In this document: positions 9,870 through 31,316 of the stretch, piece by piece
Layout of the letters: every line of letters begins with the position of its first letter
How positions within the stretch are numbered: position 1 is the first letter of the stretch
Assembly (NCBI GenBank): GCA_029258915.1
Contig: JAPDJU010000008.1
Coordinates: 1-64,000, forward strand
Source of the DNA: Thermoproteota archaeon
GTDB taxonomy: Archaea; Thermoproteota; Thermoprotei_A; EX4484-217-1
Direction: 5' to 3'
Length of the DNA: 64,000 bases
Made by a program: the position numbers and the translations under genes
The notes under the pieces: generated by a model
Seen by the model: the letters and a program-made list of their open reading frames with translations, nothing else
Database searches by the model: none
What the model was told of the DNA's origin: nothing

Positions 9870-9874
9870 TCTTG

Positions 9875-10594
9875 ATGAGCATGTTAGAGCATAAAGTTAA
9901 ACGAGATTTAAGAGAGATTTTTGACAAAATAGCGCAGAGTTATGCTTATACCAGGTTAAAACCGTGGAATATAGTTTTAAATGTCATTAGCAGTAAAACT
10001 TCGGTTTTAGGAGATATCGGTTGTGGACCTGGCCAAAACATTCAGTATGTTCTTGAAAACGCAACCTGGGTTAGAGTCATTGGCGTTGACATTTCTAGAC
10101 AGATGCTACTCATTACTGCAAAAAGGCTGAAAAGAAGAAAGCTTTATGAAAGAACAGATCTTATAGAAGCCGATTTAGAGTTTTTACCTTTTAGAAATAG
10201 CGTTTTCGACAGTTTAACATACATAGCATCTATACACCATTTACCTTCTAAAAAAGCCAGGTTAAATGCAATACTTGAAGCTAAGAGAGTATTGAAAAAG
10301 AGGGGTAAAGTTCTAATAACCGTTTGGTCTTTGCTTCAAAAAAGATTCATTAAAGCTCTTCTTAAGAACATGTTTCTTAAAATTCTAGGTAAAAGAAAAA
10401 GCTTAGGTGACGTTTTTATCCCTTGGAAACATAAGGGAGAAGCTTACCTTAGATATTATCACCTGTTTACACCTTGGGAACTTAAATCCTTAATTAGAAG
10501 TACAGGGTTAGTAATTTTAGGGTTTGGCGGGTTAAAAGTTAGGTCTAAACTGTTACCTGAAAACTATTTTGCTTTAGGGTGTAAGTGTAAGTAA
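9875..10594 (+). CDS. Trm9-like SAM-dependent tRNA methyltransferase
   Basis: A class I methyltransferase with the SAM-binding motif DIGCGPGQN, the acidic motif GVDIS, and the segment SIHHLPSKKARLNAILEAKRVLKKRGKVLITVW, closely following the Trm9/ABH8 methyltransferase pattern (family knowledge: these methylate the carboxymethyl group at wobble uridine 34). The N-terminal IFDKIAQSYAYTRLKPW also matches this group. Its TAA stop overlaps the Elp3 start by one base (TAATG), which couples it to the enzyme that makes the presumed substrate modification. The start could be TTG 9872, ATG 9875 or ATG 9881. The tRNA target is inferred from family and neighbour, not shown. Confidence 0.82.
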   Translation: MSMLEHKVKRDLREIFDKIAQSYAYTRLKPWNIVLNVISSKTSVLGDIGCGPGQNIQYVLENATWVRVIGVDISRQMLLITAKRLKRRKLYERTDLIEADLEFLPFRNSVFDSLTYIASIHHLPSKKARLNAILEAKRVLKKRGKVLITVWSLLQKRFIKALLKNMFLKILGKRKSLGDVFIPWKHKGEAYLRYYHLFTPWELKSLIRSTGLVILGFGGLKVRSKLLPENYFALGCKCK

Positions 10595-12054
10595 TGAGCT
10601 ATCGAACAAGAGCTCAAGAATTTTTAGCTAAAAGGAAAAGACCTGTTAGAACACTTTCAGGAGTAACAGTAGTTGCTATAATGAGCCATCCATATCCATG
10701 CCCTCATGGTAAGTGTTTATATTGTCCTGGAGGGCCCGAGTGTAATACTCCTCAAAGCTATATTGGCGAAGAACCAGCACTTATGAGAGCAATATATAAT
10801 AGATTTGACCCCTACTATCAGGTTAGAAACAGGCTTCAACAATATGTGGAAATAGGCCATAAACCAAGTAAGGTCGAATTAATAGTTATGGGCGGAACTT
10901 TTCCAGCAATGCCCCTTGATTATCAGGAATGGTTTGTAACTATGGCTCTTGAAGCAATGAATAGGTTTCCTAAGAAAAAACCAAGAAAATACATTAGCCT
11001 AGAAGAAGCCCAAGTAAGGAATGAACATGCAAAAATAAGATGCATAGGTATAACATTTGAAACAAGACCTGATTGGGCTAAGGAAAAACACGTAGACTTT
11101 ATGCTTAAACTGGGAGGTACAAGAGTAGAGCTAGGAGTTCAGACAATATATGATGATGTTTTAAAAACCGTAAAGAGAGGCCATGGGGTAAGGGAAACTA
11201 TTGAGGCAACAAGAATACTTAAGGATGCAGGCTTTAAAGTAGCATACCATATTATGCCAGGGCTTCCAGGAAGCAATTTAGACAGAGATTTAGAAATGGT
11301 AAAAACCATTTTTGAAGATCCAAGGTTTAAACCTGACATGCTTAAAATATATCCTACACTAGTTATTGAAGGTACAGGACTTTACAATTTATGGAAGCAG
11401 GGAAAATATAGTGCATTAACAGATGAAGAAGCTGTTGAGCTAATATCTGAAATGTATCGCTATATACCTAAATGGGTCCGTATAATGAGAATACAGAGAG
11501 ATGTTCCATCACAACTAATTATAGCTGGGCCTAAGAAAGGAAACTTAAGACAACTTGTTGAAAGGAGAGTTATTGAAAAGAAAATACCCTGTAGAGAGAT
11601 TAGATTTAGAGAAGTAGGTCTTAAAATGTGGAAAGAAGGAATAGAGCCTGATATTAAAGATATTAAGCTACTTAAAGAAGAGTATGAAGCAAGCGAAGGA
11701 TTCGAAATTTTCCTTTCAATAGAAGATACTGTTAAAGACATTCTTATAGCGTTTTTAAGACTAAGAATACCGTCGGAAAAAGCTCATAGACCTGAAGTTG
11801 ACAGTAAAACAGCTATTGTAAGAGAACTTCACGTTTACGGGCCTCAAGTCCCTATAGGCGAAGAACCACTATTTGAATGGCAGCATAAAAATTGGGGACG
11901 TATACTATTGCGTGAAGCAGAGAAAATAGCTGTAGAAAAATATGATGCTAAGAAGATAATTATTATCTCAGGTATCGGTGTTAGAGAATATTATAGAAGA
12001 CTAGGCTACTTTAGACCTTCATTAAGCCCCTACATGGTAAAGTATTGCATTTAG
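10594..12054 (+). CDS. elp3: Elp3, tRNA wobble-uridine carboxymethyl/acetyl-CoA radical SAM enzyme
   Basis: A 486-residue Elp3 orthologue. The radical SAM iron-sulfur cysteines are in CPHGKCLYC (C36, C41, C44), and the C-terminal acetyltransferase domain is visible (LREAEKIAVEKYDAKK and ISGIGVREYYRRLGY). The enzyme uses acetyl-CoA and SAM chemistry to begin carboxymethylation at C5 of uridine 34 in tRNA. Archaea lack the rest of the eukaryotic Elongator complex, so Elp3 acts alone. It overlaps the upstream Trm9-like methyltransferase by one base. Confidence 0.97.
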   Translation: MSYRTRAQEFLAKRKRPVRTLSGVTVVAIMSHPYPCPHGKCLYCPGGPECNTPQSYIGEEPALMRAIYNRFDPYYQVRNRLQQYVEIGHKPSKVELIVMGGTFPAMPLDYQEWFVTMALEAMNRFPKKKPRKYISLEEAQVRNEHAKIRCIGITFETRPDWAKEKHVDFMLKLGGTRVELGVQTIYDDVLKTVKRGHGVRETIEATRILKDAGFKVAYHIMPGLPGSNLDRDLEMVKTIFEDPRFKPDMLKIYPTLVIEGTGLYNLWKQGKYSALTDEEAVELISEMYRYIPKWVRIMRIQRDVPSQLIIAGPKKGNLRQLVERRVIEKKIPCREIRFREVGLKMWKEGIEPDIKDIKLLKEEYEASEGFEIFLSIEDTVKDILIAFLRLRIPSEKAHRPEVDSKTAIVRELHVYGPQVPIGEEPLFEWQHKNWGRILLREAEKIAVEKYDAKKIIIISGIGVREYYRRLGYFRPSLSPYMVKYCI

Positions 12055-12147
12055 ATGGAAAAAGTAATACTTAGTGTAAAGCCTTTTATTTAAAGTAATT
12101 GAAGGATTATGTTTTCGAGAGTGTATTGTAAGTGGTGATTATCGTCA

Positions 12148-13038
12148 TTGGATTTCGCTGCGGCATTAGTTAATGTAGGTGTAGTGGCTGCTTTAACAAT
12201 AGCAGTTATTGTTCTTTATAAGGCTAATAAGTTTGCTACAAAGTTTATAAAGGATAGAGTAGGTAAGAAGAAGCCAAGCTTAGCATCTATTATGATACTT
12301 CTTCTTAAAATTACCACGTCTATAACAATAATATTCATGGTTTACAGTATTTTTAAAACGTTTTACCCTGACATTGCACTTACATTAACGAATGTAACAG
12401 TAGCTGCAGGTATTTTAGGTATCATCTTCGGTTTAGCAGCACAAAGTAGCTTAGGAAACGCTATTGCAGGCATGATCCTTGTCTTCAGTCAGGCGGTTAA
12501 AGTAGGGGATATGGTAGAGTATAATGGAGAAGTAGCTGCTGTAGAAGATATTAAGTTAACACATACAATTTTGAAACTTAGAGACGGGAGGAAAATAGCA
12601 ATACCAAACGCTAACATGCTGAACTCTAACATAGTAAACTATAGTATGGTTGATGAGCTCGTAGCAGCATCTGTAACTGTAGGTATAAGCTATGAAAGTA
12701 ATTTAGATAGTGCAATAAAGGCTATGATAGAGGCTGCACGAGAACACCCTAAAGTTCTAGGAAAACCACCACCTCAAGTGATAATTACAGGTTTTGGAGA
12801 TTTCAGTATAAACCTGAAGCTTTTAGCATGGATTGATGATCCATGGATTAAACCCATCATAGAAAGCGATTTAACATGGACAATATATGAGAAATTCAAG
12901 AAATACAATGTAGAAATACCTTACCCAAGAAGGGTAATTATTGTTAAAAGCCCTGAAGAGCAAAGAAAAGTAACTGAAACTATTGGAAAAGAACTTTCAT
13001 CAACTGTGAGAGGTGAAGCAGTAAAAGAGGTCAGCTAA
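12148..13038 (+). CDS. mscS: Small-conductance mechanosensitive channel (MscS family)
   Basis: A membrane channel opened by membrane tension. Three N-terminal membrane helices are present, the third being the glycine/alanine-rich pore helix followed by QSSLGNAIAGMILVFSQAV, with KVGDMVEYNGEVAAVEDIKLTHT and the beta-domain IPNANMLNSNIVNYS typical of MscS. The start is probably TTG at 12148, with GGTGAT about ten bases upstream. The next gene, an ESCRT-III protein, starts one base after the stop codon, so the two are almost certainly co-transcribed. Confidence 0.95.
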   Translation: MDFAAALVNVGVVAALTIAVIVLYKANKFATKFIKDRVGKKKPSLASIMILLLKITTSITIIFMVYSIFKTFYPDIALTLTNVTVAAGILGIIFGLAAQSSLGNAIAGMILVFSQAVKVGDMVEYNGEVAAVEDIKLTHTILKLRDGRKIAIPNANMLNSNIVNYSMVDELVAASVTVGISYESNLDSAIKAMIEAAREHPKVLGKPPPQVIITGFGDFSINLKLLAWIDDPWIKPIIESDLTWTIYEKFKKYNVEIPYPRRVIIVKSPEEQRKVTETIGKELSSTVRGEAVKEVS

Positions 13039-13039
13039 A

Positions 13040-13615
13040 ATGGTATTATGGATTTTTGGTAGAAAGAAAAGAAGATTTGAAGACCTAAAAACTAAAAGAA
13101 TGACACTAGCACTTAGAAAATTAAGGATAGCATCAGCTGCAATAGCATCTCTAATAAATAACATAGATAAACACATACACTTTCTTAAAGCTAGAATAGT
13201 TAGGTTAAAACAAAGATCAAAAGACCTTGAAAAAGTAGGCATGTATAGTGAGGTAAGAATGATAAGGAATGAAATAGCAGAAATACAGAAAACGATTAAG
13301 AAATTAACTGTAACGAGAAATATACTGGAAAAAGTAAAGCTAAGACTGAATACGTTAAGAGATATGAGCGAAGCCCTAATAATACTTGCTCCAGCATTAA
13401 ATGTTTTAAGAAGGCTAATTAAAGATCTTATGAGAGTTAAGCCGGAAATAGCTTACCAAATAAATAGCATAAGAGAGCTAATTTATTCTTCACTCTTAGA
13501 CTTAGGCGAGTTTACTAGAGTTACCATTGAATACTATGTTGCAACAAGCCGCGAAGCAGAAGAAATACTTGAAGAAGCCATGAAAATAGCCGAGCAGAAG
13601 CTAAAAGAAACATAA
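13040..13615 (+). CDS. cdvB: ESCRT-III-like protein, CdvB family (short paralogue)
   Basis: A 191-residue, helix- and coiled-coil-rich protein. It matches the Sulfolobus CdvB1/CdvB2 pattern: the block LEKVKLRLNTLRDMSEALI followed by LAPALNVLRRL and then IRELIYSSLLDLGEF corresponds to conserved ESCRT-III core positions. The N-terminus is strongly basic (RKKRRFEDLKTKR), as expected for membrane contact, and the C-terminus is acidic (EAEEILEEAMKIAEQ). There is no C-terminal winged-helix domain like that of the main CdvB, so this is a short paralogue. ESCRT-III polymers act in membrane scission, cell division and vesicle release. It follows mscS by one base. Confidence 0.87.
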   Translation: MVLWIFGRKKRRFEDLKTKRMTLALRKLRIASAAIASLINNIDKHIHFLKARIVRLKQRSKDLEKVGMYSEVRMIRNEIAEIQKTIKKLTVTRNILEKVKLRLNTLRDMSEALIILAPALNVLRRLIKDLMRVKPEIAYQINSIRELIYSSLLDLGEFTRVTIEYYVATSREAEEILEEAMKIAEQKLKET

Positions 13616-13684: not shown

Positions 13685-13957
13685 TTAATCGTTCTTCACT
13701 GAACCAGTTAAACAATGTCTTATTATCATAACGTGACTCAAATAAGAATCTCTTCCTGTTCTCTTTATAAACTGCCCTAGTGTTATAGGGTTGCCTTTAA
13801 ACACTTTATCGAAAAACTCTATTATTCTCTTAACTTCCAGAAAACTTGTTGTTAAAATCTTAACAAAGTAGTCTACTTGTTTTCGATGTCTTCTTTTAAT
13901 AATATACTTAGTACCATCACCATCCCAGAGACCTGCTAACCATGCTTCAAACCGCAT
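13685..13957 (-). pseudogene. LAGLIDADG homing-endonuclease remnant
   Basis: A 90-residue reading frame that starts with one intact LAGLIDADG motif (WLAGLWDGDGTK) and continues with a KRIIEFFDKVF segment usual in this family. Functional single-motif enzymes are usually 160-180 residues and two-motif enzymes about 200, so this is about half a protein. I find no continuation in the downstream sequence and it is not inside an rRNA or tRNA gene. It is most likely a decayed endonuclease left after intron or free-standing mobility. Confidence 0.6.
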
Positions 13958-25183: not shown

Positions 25184-25496
25184 CACCCTGGGCTACGGCC
25201 TCGGGCGATTGGGAGCGGCGGGCTCACCCCTCGGGAGCTAAGCTCCCTTGGGGCTTACACCCCCGCCCCATCAACCCCGTCTTCTACGGGAGCCCTCGTC
25301 CCCCTTTTCAGGGGGAACGGCCGCCTATTTTCGGGGAGGGTTTCCCGCTTAGATGCTTTCAGCGGTTACCCCTTACGGCGTGGCTGCCCGGCTGTGCCCT
25401 GTGGGACAACCGGTACACTAGAGGCCGCGATGCCCCGTTCCTCTCGTACTGAGGGCACCTTCCCCTCAGGCGGCCAACACCCCCCGTGGGTAGAGT

Positions 25497-25549
<53 letters not shown>

Positions 25550-25636
25550 GGCAGCCCCACCCTTGGGGGCTTGCAGGGAGGTATATTCTCTACCTCCTTG
25601 CTGCACCCCCAGGATGGGAAGAGCCGACATCGATGT

Positions 25637-25677
<41 letters not shown>

Positions 25678-26197
25678 TCTGTTATCCCCGGGGTAACTTT
25701 TCTGTCATGCCCGGCCCCCACCGATGGGGGCACGAGCGTTCGCTAGGCCACGGTTTCCCGGCCGGACCCCTTGCGTTCAGAGGTCCGGTCAGGCCGGCTT
25801 TTGCCCTTGCACTCTACGGCGGAGTTCTGACCCGCCTGAGCCGACCTTTGGGCTCCCGTGTTACCTTTTCGCGGGAGTGCCGCCCCAGCCAAACCGCCCA
25901 CCTGCCGCTGTCCCCGAGGTTCACCCTCGGGTTAGGGACACGGAGGTTAATGAGCGGTGTTTCATTGGCGGCTCCACAGCCCCCGGAGAGGCTGCTTCAC
26001 TGCCTCCCGCCTACGCTACGCACTAACCCCCGTATCCCAACGACAGGCTGCGGTAAAGCTCCACGGGGTCTTCTCTCCCTACGGGGGGTTGCCGGCCTGT
26101 GCACCGGCTCCGTGTGTTCACCAGGCCCCGGGCCGGGACAGTGGGGACCTCGTTGATCCATTCATGCGCGCCGGAACTTACCCGGCAAGGCATTTGG

Positions 26198-26707
26198 CTA
26201 CCTTTCTCCCGGGAGGTCTCGCCGCTTGGCAATGTGTGAGTTTACTATCTTGAATACTTCATTAATGCTCCTTCTTCTATGGGCTTTGGAGCTTAGGTTA
26301 GATAGTGTATAGGTTTTGGAGATAAGTTCTTTTAGTTTAGAGACGTTCTTGTGTAAACCCTTGTGTAATGTGAGGACTATATTTCTAAAGATTAGATATG
26401 CTTCTTTCTTAACATGTAGGAGGTTTTGATACTTGTCAAGGAATGGGATTAGTTTCTCTACAAGTTCGTTCATGTTATCTACTATATAGACATGTAAGTG
26501 TCTTTGACCAGGCTTCTCTATTATCCTTCCTGCACCTATAGCTCTTCTAATAAGCTCTAACACATCCCTTCTCGCTTGTGTAATGCTAAATACTGGGTCA
26601 AGCCTTACTCCGTAAGTAAGGTCTTTCTGTACCTTTATGCTTACTGAAAAGCATCCTTCAGCATCAATGAACCCTATTATGTAACCGGTAACTAACATGT
26701 ACTCCAA
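26198..26707 (-). CDS. LAGLIDADG homing endonuclease of the 23S intron
   Basis: A 169-residue protein with one clear LAGLIDADG motif (YIIGFIDAEGCFS), so it probably works as a homodimer. The ATG at 26707 or 26698 may serve as start. The frame runs past the intron's 3' end: the last arginine codon uses two exon bases and the stop TAG is the TAG inside the exon sequence GGTAGCC. The full product can therefore be made only from unspliced RNA. Confidence 0.87.
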   Translation of the reverse strand: MEYMLVTGYIIGFIDAEGCFSVSIKVQKDLTYGVRLDPVFSITQARRDVLELIRRAIGAGRIIEKPGQRHLHVYIVDNMNELVEKLIPFLDKYQNLLHVKKEAYLIFRNIVLTLHKGLHKNVSKLKELISKTYTLSNLSSKAHRRRSINEVFKIVNSHIAKRRDLPGER

Positions 26708-26778
26708 GTACCCACCTGACTATCTACTGGTAGTCAGAGATAATAAGTTTTATCATGCCAAGCGGCGGGACTCTCCCG
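26203..26778 (-). mobile_element. Archaeal intron in 23S rRNA with LAGLIDADG gene
   Basis: Removing these bases restores the universally conserved CTCTTAAGGTAGCCAAATG of domain IV. The intron ends pair through an 11-base helix, GCCGCTTGGCA with TGCCAAGCGGC, next to the splice sites, consistent with bulge-helix-bulge splicing. The insertion is at the same CTCTTAA/GGTAGC junction that is the known target of the unrelated eukaryotic endonuclease I-PpoI (about E. coli 1925-1931). Exact ends may shift by up to two bases because of flanking A residues. Confidence 0.88.
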
Positions 26779-26874
26779 TTAAGAGAGTCAGAGTTACTCC
26801 CGGCCTTCAGCGGCGCTTCGCCGGGTTGAACCCCGGTTTCACGGACCGCCAGTGGCCAGGATTCAGCCCCCGTA

Positions 26875-26907
<33 letters not shown>

Positions 26908-26979
26908 TTATTAAACAGTCAGGCCCCCCTAGGCACTGCGACCTGCGGTTCCAGGGTTTCACCCCCAAAACCGCAGGCA

Positions 26980-27012
<33 letters not shown>

Positions 27013-28339
27013 GAGTTCCCTGGCCCGGGGTGGACCCGAGACGCCTTGGGCTTCTCACCCAGGAGCACCTGTGTCGGTTCTCGGTACGGGCGCGGGGGAT
27101 CCTTCCCGGTCCCCTTTTCATGGGCCCCAGGGATCGGCCGAACCGCCCTAACGGGCGGCCATTCCCCCCTTCAGCCGGTTCTCGCCATTACGGCACTCCC
27201 CGGCCTTCGGGTAGTTAGATCGGTCGCAGGGCAAAACCCCTACGGCCGACTCGGCCTACCCTGAGACGTCGGAGACCGGGCTTGCGTTGCCGCGAACGTA
27301 CCCCCGCGGCACGGGAATATTAACCCGTTTCCCTTTCCCGGGGTCCGGGTTACGGCCCCGGTTAGGGCCGGCTAACCCTCGGCTGACGACCATTGCCGAG
27401 GAACCCTGGTCCTTTCTGGCGGAGGGGATTTCCACCCCTCTTCGCTGTTACTGCCGCCGGGATCCACGCTCGGACCGGGTCCACGGGACCTCACGGCCCC
27501 GCTTCTAACCCGGCCCGACGCCCTCCTACCGGATCACCACCGCATAACGGTGGTGCCCCGGGGTCTCGGCGGCCGGCTTAAGCCCCGACCAATCTTCGGG
27601 GCCCTCGGCCTCGGCGGGTGAGCTGTTACGCACTCTTTAAAGGGTGGCTGCTGTTAGGCCCACCTCCCCGCTGTCTAAGGCCGAGGACACCCTTTGGCTT
27701 GGCACTTAGCCGGCACTTAGGGGCCTTAACCCCGGTCTGGGTTGTTCCCCTTTCGGCTCCCGGGCTTACCCCGGGAAACCCCACTCCCGCCTTCTACGGC
27801 GGCTACGGGTTCGGAGTTTGATAGGGAGGCGGAGGCTATCCGCCCCTCACTCTCCCAATCAGTAACTCTACCCCGTAGCCTACCTCCGGCGGGGCTGCCC
27901 TACGAGGCACTTCGGAGGGAACCAGCTATCACCGGGCTAGATTGGTCTTTTGCCCCTAGACCGAGGTCATGGGAACGAATTGCACGTCAGAACCCTTTCG
28001 GGCCTCCACCGGGCTTTCGCCCGGCTTCACCCTGCCCCGGCCTAGATCGCCCGGTTTCTGGTCTCACGGCCGTGACTCCGGGCCCTGTTAGGACCCCGCC
28101 CCTTGCCGAGGATTAAACCCTCGGCTGCGGGCATGTCGGTTTCCCTACGCCTTCGGGGGTGAACCCCTTAGGCTTGCCACGGCCGTGAACTCCCCGGCCC
28201 GTGTTTCAAGACGGACGGTGCGACTCCGGTCCACCCTCTTCGTACTTCCCGGTTGCCCGGGTTTCCTTCAGAGGGTTTCACTCCTTAAGAGCCGCACCGT
28301 ATATCGCCGTCCGGTTTCAGGCTCTTTTCACCCCCCTCT

Positions 28340-28371
<32 letters not shown>

Positions 28372-28905
28372 AGTGCGCTATCGGTCTCGGGACGTATTTA
28401 GCCTTGGAGGTCGGTGACCCCCAACTTCCCACGGCAAAACCAAGCCGTGGTACTCTGGGACACCGGCCCTTCGCCCCCAGGGTTTAACCTACGGGGCTGT
28501 CACCCTCTACGGCCCCGGACTTCCACCGGAGTTCGGCTACCCTGGGTAGGCGGCGGCCGGGCCCCTTTAACCCTACATCTCCCTACAGTTATCCCGTAGG
28601 GATTTGGTTTGGGCTCTCCCCCTTTCGGTCGCCCCTACTCAGGGGATCCCTTATTGGTTTCTTTTCCTCCCCCTACTAAGATGTTTCCGTTCGGGGGGTT
28701 CCCGTTCGGTACTCCCCGTAGAGAATATTTTCTACGGGTTTCCCGAACGCTACGGACTATTCGCCCGTAGCGGGAAGTCCCATTCGGGGATCCCGGGTTC
28801 AACGGCTGCATGCGCCTACCCCGGGCATATCGCCGCTTGCCGCGCCCTTCGTCGGCGCCCGAGCCGAGCCATCCACCGGACGGCTTCGTGCCATAGCCCG
28901 GCATA

Positions 28906-29092: not shown

Positions 29093-29154
<62 letters not shown>

Positions 29155-29520
29155 GAGGTCAGGTTCGACCTAACCCCTTATCGGAGCTAGGCCTCACCTA
29201 ACCCCCGCTCGGGTGGAGCGACGGGCGGTGTGTACAAGGAGCAGGGACGTATTCACCGCGCGATGATGACGCGCGGTTACTAGGGATTCCGCGTTCACGA
29301 GGGCGAGTTGCAGCCCTCGATCCCAACTGAGGCGGGGTTTAAGGGATTGCCTTCCCCTTTCGGGGTCGGCTCCCGCTGTCCCCGCCATTGTAGCCCGCGT
29401 GTAGCCCGGGGGTTTCGGGGCATGCTGACCTGCCGTGGCCCCCTCCTTCCTCCGCCTTACACGGCGGCAGTCCCCCCAGTGTGCCCCGATCCCGTAGGAT
29501 CGGGTAGCAACTGGGGGCGG

Positions 29521-29552
<32 letters not shown>

Positions 29553-29560
29553 CCTCACGG

Positions 29561-29592
<32 letters not shown>

Positions 29593-29719
29593 AGCGCGTC
29601 GGGCAAGGCCTTTAGCCTGGCCGTCATCCTGCTGTCGCCCCCGGTAAGGTTCCCGGCGTTGACTCCAATTAAACCGCAGGCTCCACCCCTTGTGGTGCTC
29701 CCCCGTCAATTCCTTTAAG

Positions 29720-30411
29720 TCTGCCGGGCCAGGGCCGGGCGAATCTATTGAAGGAGTAATTGTTTTAACCTACGAAGCTTACATGGGTGCCTAAAACCTA
29801 TGATTTCGGCGAATCTGATTAGAGCTTCCTTTGACGACATCCTTAGCCTCCATACATTGTCATTACCGAGATATATTCCTGAGGACTTTATTCCTAGGTA
29901 TTCAAGAGTTTTCTTTATGAATTCTAATGGTTCTCTGATTCCCTGAGACATATCTATTTGGATGCCCTTATTCGACCTTATAATGCTACCCTCCGCGTCA
30001 ACGAACCCTCTTATATATTCCAACTGTAGATCTATTGGTGCGTTCTTAATGGGCTCTGGTGTTGGCCATGGTAGTCGCTTCTTTGAACCTTTTCCTAGTG
30101 GATGACCGAATTCGCTCACTATGATTTCATAGAGTTTCTTAGAGCTTATTCTTACCCTGTATTGCCTCGGCTTGTACATATACGGATTACATTTGGATAT
30201 GCCAAGCTTGTGTAGCTTTCGGCAGATCACTCTTTTTAGATATGCTTTATTGCTGGAATACCAGATAATATAATAGTTCCTCGTTTCCTCGTACTTGTAT
30301 ACTGAACCGTCTCTTAGAGCACCTATTAGATAATATAATGCTTTTTCGTATGTCACATGCTCCACCCATTAATATTTAAGATAAGCTTTAAAATTGCCCG
30401 ACCCGCTGGCC
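29720..30411 (-). mobile_element. Archaeal intron in 16S rRNA with LAGLIDADG gene
   Basis: Deleting these bases rejoins GGCTGAAA to CTTAAAGG and recreates the conserved sequence around E. coli position 908, a known intron site in hyperthermophilic Crenarchaeota. The intron ends pair (GGCCAG at the 5' end with CTGGCC near the 3' end), as required for bulge-helix-bulge splicing. The endonuclease gene occupies most of it. Ends may shift by one or two bases. Confidence 0.88.
29745..30365 (-). CDS. LAGLIDADG homing endonuclease of the 16S intron (I-DmoI-like)
   Basis: A 206-residue protein with two LAGLIDADG motifs, YLIGALRDGSV (about residue 12) and YIRGFVDAEGSI (about residue 113), so it should act as a monomer, as I-DmoI does. 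It cleaves intronless alleles to spread its intron (family knowledge). The frame is fully inside the intron. Base composition is AT-rich compared with the surrounding rRNA, as expected for an inserted element. Confidence 0.92.
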   Translation of the reverse strand: MEHVTYEKALYYLIGALRDGSVYKYEETRNYYIIWYSSNKAYLKRVICRKLHKLGISKCNPYMYKPRQYRVRISSKKLYEIIVSEFGHPLGKGSKKRLPWPTPEPIKNAPIDLQLEYIRGFVDAEGSIIRSNKGIQIDMSQGIREPLEFIKKTLEYLGIKSSGIYLGNDNVWRLRMSSKEALIRFAEIIGFRHPCKLRRLKQLLLQ

Positions 30412-30549
30412 TTTCAGCCTTGCGGCCGTACTCCCCAGGCGGCGGGCTTAACGGCTTCCCTGCGGCACTGGACGGGCTCAAGGCCCGTCCAACACCTAGC
30501 CCGCATCGTTTACAGCCGGGACTACCCGGGTATCTAATCCGGTTTGCTC

Positions 30550-30583
<34 letters not shown>

Positions 30584-30765
30584 CAGCCGAGCGCCTTCGC
30601 CACTGGCGGTCCTCCCGGGATTACAGGATTTCGCCCCTACCCCGGGAGTACCCTCGGCCTCTCCCGCCCCCTAGCCCAGCAGTATCCCCGCAGTTCCCCG
30701 GGTTAAGCCCGGGGCTTTACGCGGGGACTTGCTGGGCCGGCTACGGGCGCTTTAGGCCCAATAAA

Positions 30766-30813
<48 letters not shown>

Positions 30814-31316
30814 ACTTGCCCCCCGCTTATTCCCCCGCCTTTTTACAGCGGGGAAAAGCCTCCCTTATCGGGAGGCACTCGGGGTGACCCCGTCACGGTT
30901 TCCCGCATTGCGGAGGTTTCGCGCCTGGTGCGCCCCATAGGGCCTGGGCCCTTGTCTCAGTGCCCATCTCGGGGCTCCCGCTTTCACGGCCCCCACCCGT
31001 TATCGGCTTGGCGGGCCATTACCCCGCCAACTACCTGATGGGCCGCAGCCCCATCCTCGGGCGGGTGCAGCGGGGATGGCGCTACACCCTTTTTAGGGAG
31101 AAACCATTCCAGGCCTCCTCCCCTATCGGGGATTAGCCCCAGTTTCCCAGGGGTTATCCCCGTCCCGAGGGTAGGTTGGCCACGTGTTACTGAGCCGTCC
31201 GCCGCGCCCCGCCATACCCCGGGGCGCGCGACTCCCATGGCTTAGTCCCACCCCGATAGCGGTCGGGTCCGGCAGGATCAACCGGAGTTCGGCCGCAAAA
31301 AGGCCTTGACGGGGGC

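Follow-up and report, generated by a model that had tools for sequence, protein, structure and literature searches.

The stretch of DNA analysed here, referred to as the window, comprises 64,000 nucleotides of a heat-loving Thermoproteota archaeon, and it carries, on the forward strand, a gene for an MscS-type mechanosensitive channel (12148-13038, TTG start, 296 aa) and a gene for an ESCRT-III protein consisting of the core domain only, with neither the MIM2 motif nor the winged helix (13040-13615, ATG start, 191 aa), with a gap of one base between the stop of the former and the start of the latter. An earlier note on this DNA had described exactly this arrangement, an MscS gene followed after one base by a short ESCRT-III gene, and both frames are found precisely where it had placed them. 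By eye, Shine-Dalgarno-like motifs can be recognized 5' of the channel gene (12134-12139, +) and, for the ESCRT-III gene, within the end of the channel gene (13027-13031, +), while a TATA-like element (12084-12094, +) is a candidate for the likely promoter of the two-gene unit. The first codons of the ESCRT-III gene (13040-13075, +) specify a hydrophobic-then-basic N-terminus, a possible membrane anchor. Just downstream of the pair, a 90-aa frame on the reverse strand (13685-13957), with no Pfam match, contains a LAGL-DGDG stretch that we take to resemble the LAGLIDADG motif of homing endonucleases, and is probably a remnant. Elsewhere in the window, matches to the 23S rRNA (25189-28900, -) and the 16S rRNA (29093-31288, -) span approximately 3.7 and 2.2 kb, versus 2987 and 1478 positions in the respective models, and thus introns or insertions are likely in both.

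As to the channel, it matches the Pfam models PF00924 (58.8 bits versus a cut-off of 20.2) and PF21082 (53.1 bits versus a cut-off of 21), as well as solved MscS channels (7dlu, E 1.2e-25), with three hydrophobic segments located ahead of the beta domain; the beta and C-terminal domains and the three membrane helices by which MscS channels are defined are all present. It belongs to a subfamily of its own, with identities of 48-54% across five genomes of the class, and of 28-38% to the next relatives among the matches listed. The C-terminal tails of the channels from the two genomes that possess the pair (see below) are not conserved.

As to the 191-aa protein, no Pfam model is matched above its cut-off, the Snf7 model included. 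The NCBIfam models for CdvB1/B2 (NF041005; E 8.8e-24, 84.1 bits) and for CdvB (E 1.6e-14) are matched, in each case below the equivalog cut-off, which for NF041005 is 350, a value that the genome's own CdvB1 (267.6 bits) does not reach either. In phmmer comparisons with PDB sequences, solved CdvB2 (E 6.2e-19) and solved CdvB (E 5.3e-11) are matched. A structure model based on a 26-sequence alignment consists of five helices (mean pLDDT 79.7, pTM 0.65, the N-terminal residues being of low confidence, with a block mean of 49), and CdvB2 filaments and CdvB rank first for it (Foldseek, top ten at E values from 1.6e-6 to 6.1e-4); a model from two sequences only returns the same top family. CdvB is also at the top in the VIA structure comparison (Z 16.2), in which unrelated helical bundles score high too, and the claim for the fold thus rests on CdvB ranking first along with the sequence matches. 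The long alpha1-alpha2 hairpin and the further helices match those of solved ESCRT-III proteins, placing the protein within this superfamily. The earlier note had staked its proposal on the second gene possessing the ESCRT-III fold, and this part is borne out, CdvB2 and CdvB being first in both structure comparisons. The possibility of a mere coiled coil was considered and rejected, as spectrin-like and other Pfam matches are weak (best E 0.0097) and far outscored by the CdvB models and structures. PspA_IM30 is absent from the Pfam matches at E up to 1, and the bacterial PspA/Vipp1 proteins are therefore compared below by their mode of action only.

The earlier note had named confinement of the pair to one genome as fatal to its idea, and such confinement is not observed. 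The pair recurs in Desulfurococcales archaeon SZUA-1508 (G006, locus L048), a representative of another family, with gene order and strand identical, with an overlap of 20 bases between channel and ESCRT-III gene, and with a Shine-Dalgarno-like motif at the equivalent place inside the channel gene. The end of that contig (L048, 7246-7462) is an inverted copy of the end of the ESCRT-III gene, which probably arose in assembly and hides whatever follows the pair. On contig C34 of SZUA-1508 (L060, 3863-4282), a 139-aa ESCRT-III-like frame is located directly 3' of CdvB1. Across the 229 genomes of the class, MscS proteins are found in 186 (E up to 1e-6), while close relatives of the window channel (50-54% identity in this search) are found in four other genomes and the pair in two genomes in all (among the matches listed). 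None of the flanks of the channel relatives in the three genomes of family f15 (L045-L047) contains an ESCRT-III gene. The channel is matched at E up to 1e-42 in 25 of the 398 genomes of the phylum; 12 of these loci were fetched (two of them known already, the other 13 matches being outside this count), and none of the ten new loci, all from outside the class, has an ESCRT-III neighbor within flanks of at most about 1.5 kb. When a profile built from the pair's two ESCRT-III proteins is searched against the 229 genomes, its own members score 336 and 304 bits, as expected by construction, and the next protein scores 88 (among the matches listed). Two of the genomes, G001 and G002, are incomplete (67 and 59%, respectively), and absence from these weighs little. 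The possibility of a common TACK feature was considered and is ruled out by the rarity of the pair in the class together with the partnerless channels elsewhere.

Rare as it is, the pairing exceeds chance. Sixty genomes contain 140 ESCRT-III and 119 MscS matches, and two pairs are found within 1 kb, versus approximately 0.34 expected for any arrangement under uniform placement in an assumed genome of 1.7 Mb; this count of all channel subfamilies covers the 60 genomes, and pairs involving other subfamilies could be missed in the remaining 169. The two pairs are those of the window and of SZUA-1508, in both of which the channel gene comes first, the strand is shared and the genes abut or overlap. 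As far as searched, nothing points to a virus or plasmid as the source of the pair: viral contigs contain no relative of either ESCRT-III partner, and plasmids none of the window protein.

The two ESCRT-III partners share 34% identity over 116 residues, including a common VTIEYY stretch. The best match of the SZUA-1508 partner is the window protein (66.6 bits, the next match scoring 62.4), and the window protein is matched best by CdvB1/B2 proteins (up to 98.6 bits). The two form a clade in a 48-row tree (support 97/93) and in a 47-row tree (98/98; begun with 62 rows, with 16 names dropped), and this clade is not recovered in a 35-row tree, with 13 long rows dropped. As both partners evolve fast, long-branch effects in this clade are possible. 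Most of the neighbors of the pair differ between the two genomes, and the pair therefore appears to hold together through changing surroundings, with some shared neighborhood possible: a metallohydrolase relative is located upstream in both (36% identity), and a methyltransferase shows weak similarity. Upstream of the pair (window 9872-12054), a methyltransferase gene overlaps an Elp3-like radical SAM gene, as also in L050 and L051; this gene duo is kept in the window, in SZUA-1508, where it is on a different contig from the channel, and in G003. The Elp3-like protein of the window matches that of SZUA-1508 at 76%, and that of G003, a genome of the same order, at 66%.

As classified in the accessible portion of PMC8970359, CdvB is composed of the core, MIM2 and a winged helix, CdvB1/2 of the core and MIM2, and CdvB3 of the core only. 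When 62 sequences are scanned with the core MIM2 pattern given there, strictly or with any middle residue allowed (relaxed), the strict motif is present in 40, and the relaxed motif is present in 43 of the 44 division-type proteins (division-type, B1, cdvB, 3rd, and short are our own labels, from length and place). The window protein and its counterpart in SZUA-1508 carry neither form of the motif. In alignment, both also end before the winged helix, the extra domain that the genome's own CdvB does possess. The window protein accordingly has neither the CdvA-binding winged helix that follows MIM2 in CdvB, nor the MIM2 that follows the core in CdvB1/2, and its architecture is that of CdvB3. However, it does not match the NCBIfam CdvB3 model (NF041009) at E up to 1, even though the three other ESCRT-III proteins of the genome do. 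The assignment to the CdvB family made in the earlier note thus stands insofar as the protein is an ESCRT-III relative nearest to CdvB1/B2, but not insofar as CdvB itself is meant, the protein belonging to a side branch devoid of MIM2 and winged helix. Compared with 61 other ESCRT-III proteins, both paired proteins and several MIM2-less paralogues possess the hydrophobic-then-basic start, unlike most of the division CdvB1/B2. Both paired genes are open, with positions invariant across 26 ESCRT-III proteins kept. Disruption of cdvB3 in Sulfolobus islandicus caused no growth defect, according to the portion of PMC6249222 available; hence a core-only paralogue is not necessarily essential for division.

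The genome in question (1.6 Mb, 99.7% complete) encodes four ESCRT-III proteins, and its division locus is complete: contig C4 carries cdvA, cdvB and cdvC (with the MIT, AAA, and Vps4_C domains), along with a divergent cdvB1. The pair was thus correctly described as distinct from the usual cdvABC locus, and the idea of a piece moved out of the latter is ruled out. The fourth paralogue (203 aa) is encoded on contig C7 (L053, 681-1292), directly before a gene for formylmethanofuran-tetrahydromethanopterin formyltransferase; no McrA is found in the genome. Contig C4 also carries a TrkA-type gene directly followed by a different MscS-family gene (L052, 9183-10661), as do L056 and L057; in all three genomes of family f1 searched, approximately 2.7-2.8 kb, including the enolase gene, separate this duo from the cdv locus.

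Crenarchaeal ESCRT-III proteins are known chiefly from cell division and vesicle release. In the literature searched, exclusive of supplements and subscription papers, we found no description of a CdvB/ESCRT-III gene paired with a gene for MscS or another mechanosensitive channel, and one paper that names both ESCRT-III and mechanosensitive channels treats them separately. Neither term, MscS or mechanosensitive, occurs in the main text, in the portions available, of a survey of archaeal ESCRT neighborhoods (PMC10936438) or of a survey of PSP/Snf7 neighborhoods (PMC11237479). Overall, judging from the sequences of two genomes, the gene pair is real, tight, and kept twice, and it involves a side-branch ESCRT-III protein; the parts are known, and their combination is unexpected. 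That the pair is kept in a second archaeal lineage suggests a membrane-stress device separate from division, in which the two proteins would function jointly.

The reading we tentatively prefer, while holding it to be somewhat short of probable, is by analogy with bacterial PspA: a two-gene module of tension relief and membrane scaffolding, rather than a part of the division machinery. The earlier note had likewise proposed a membrane-stress response, in which pressure would be relieved and membrane mended or budded, a proposal that is supported in part. The two genes would form one translationally coupled unit and would be co-expressed. With membrane tension rising, the channel would open, solutes would leave and turgor would be relieved. 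The ESCRT-III protein, made alongside, may bind the inner face of the membrane via its hydrophobic-basic N-terminus and polymerize into a scaffold that, close to the channel, would support or curve away membrane that is stretched or leaky, as the N-terminal helix of PspA, an ESCRT-III relative, enters and bends the membrane under stress (PMC12358876, in the portion available). It would thus act outside the division ring and cycle, possibly in contact with the channel and in response to membrane stress. With MIM2 missing, the usual disassembly by Vps4/CdvC is not expected, and with the winged helix missing, neither is recruitment by CdvA. In favor of such a module are the tight gene junction in both genomes, with a Shine-Dalgarno-like motif inside the channel gene, the recurrence of the pair amid mostly different neighbors, the clade of the two partners in the larger trees, their lack of MIM2 and winged helix, their hydrophobic-then-basic starts, and a division system that is complete elsewhere in the genome. 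Against it speaks the presence of the pair in only two genomes (among the matches listed). Moreover, the channel does not need a partner, as none accompanies its relatives in family f15 (3 of 3) or those fetched from outside the class (10 of 10). Also to be set against the module are the 35-row tree, in which the clade of the two partners is not recovered, the CdvB1/B2 proteins as best matches of the window protein, and the low confidence of the N-terminal residues in the model. A more far-reaching version, of a dedicated ESCRT-III polymer recruited to, or tuning, a mechanosensitive channel as a Vps4-independent membrane-tension module of the TACK archaea, we regard as rather doubtful.

Three other explanations need to be weighed against the scaffold module, each of them unlikely in our view. 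The ESCRT-III protein may be a partner subunit of the channel, binding its cytosolic cage, clustering channels or tuning their gating, with no membrane remodeling of its own. The tight gene coupling in both lineages, suggesting matched amounts, and the single channel subfamily in both genomes would fit such a subunit, but channels of this subfamily also occur without a partner, and with the C-terminal tails not conserved, no common docking segment is visible there; we give this explanation little credence. Just as improbable is an accessory role in division, with the protein as a paralogue of the CdvB3 type and the channel managing turgor in division: while the core-only architecture agrees with the CdvB3 class (as defined in the portion of PMC8970359 cited) and the sequence is nearest to CdvB1/B2, the CdvB3 model fails to detect this protein and detects the three other ESCRT-III proteins of the same genome, the pair is located away from the cdv locus, and in S. 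islandicus, cdvB3 is dispensable, with growth normal (PMC6249222, same portion).

The adjacency may also carry no function: in an ancestor, a fast-evolving spare ESCRT-III copy would have landed behind a channel gene, to persist as a passenger in two lineages that are related or in exchange. The higher Elp3 similarity to SZUA-1508 (76%) than to G003 (66%) indeed suggests that the two may be more closely related than their labels imply, and the metallohydrolase relative upstream of the pair in both genomes (36% identity), the fast evolution of the partner and the occurrence of the pair in only 2 of the 229 genomes (among the matches listed) point in the same direction. However, both ESCRT-III genes have remained open and have kept the positions invariant across the 26 proteins, and the pair has stayed while most of the flanking genes differ, so that this explanation, too, has a low probability in our estimate.

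The more far-reaching version, of a polymer dedicated to the channel, would, if true, tie tension sensing genetically and directly to ESCRT-III beyond cell division. With a MIM2-less paralogue tied to a tension-gated channel, membrane protection by archaeal ESCRT-III could be put to the test, in a role that would fall between that of PspA in bacteria and membrane repair in eukaryotes, and two separate lineages could be compared. As to known systems, the window channel resembles the small-conductance mechanosensitive channels of the MscS type in domain make-up and in the three hydrophobic segments, but it belongs to a subfamily of its own, with an ESCRT-III gene behind it in two of five genomes of the class. 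The window ESCRT-III protein is nearest, in sequence and structure, to CdvB1/CdvB2 of the Sulfolobales and relatives, from which it differs in having no FPxLP-type MIM2, in forming its own branch, in its basic N-terminus and in its place behind a channel gene. With the CdvB3 class it shares the core-only architecture without MIM2 and, as in several members, the hydrophobic-basic start, but the CdvB3 model does not match it, and in the 47-row tree, whose deep forks are weak, it does not group with core-only paralogues from other families. With PspA/Vipp1, the stress-response ESCRT-III relatives of bacteria, it would share the mode of action proposed here, a stress scaffold with an N-terminal membrane anchor (PMC12358876; PMC11237479; both in the portions available), whereas its sequence sides with archaeal CdvB, not with PspA_IM30, and its partner is an MscS channel.
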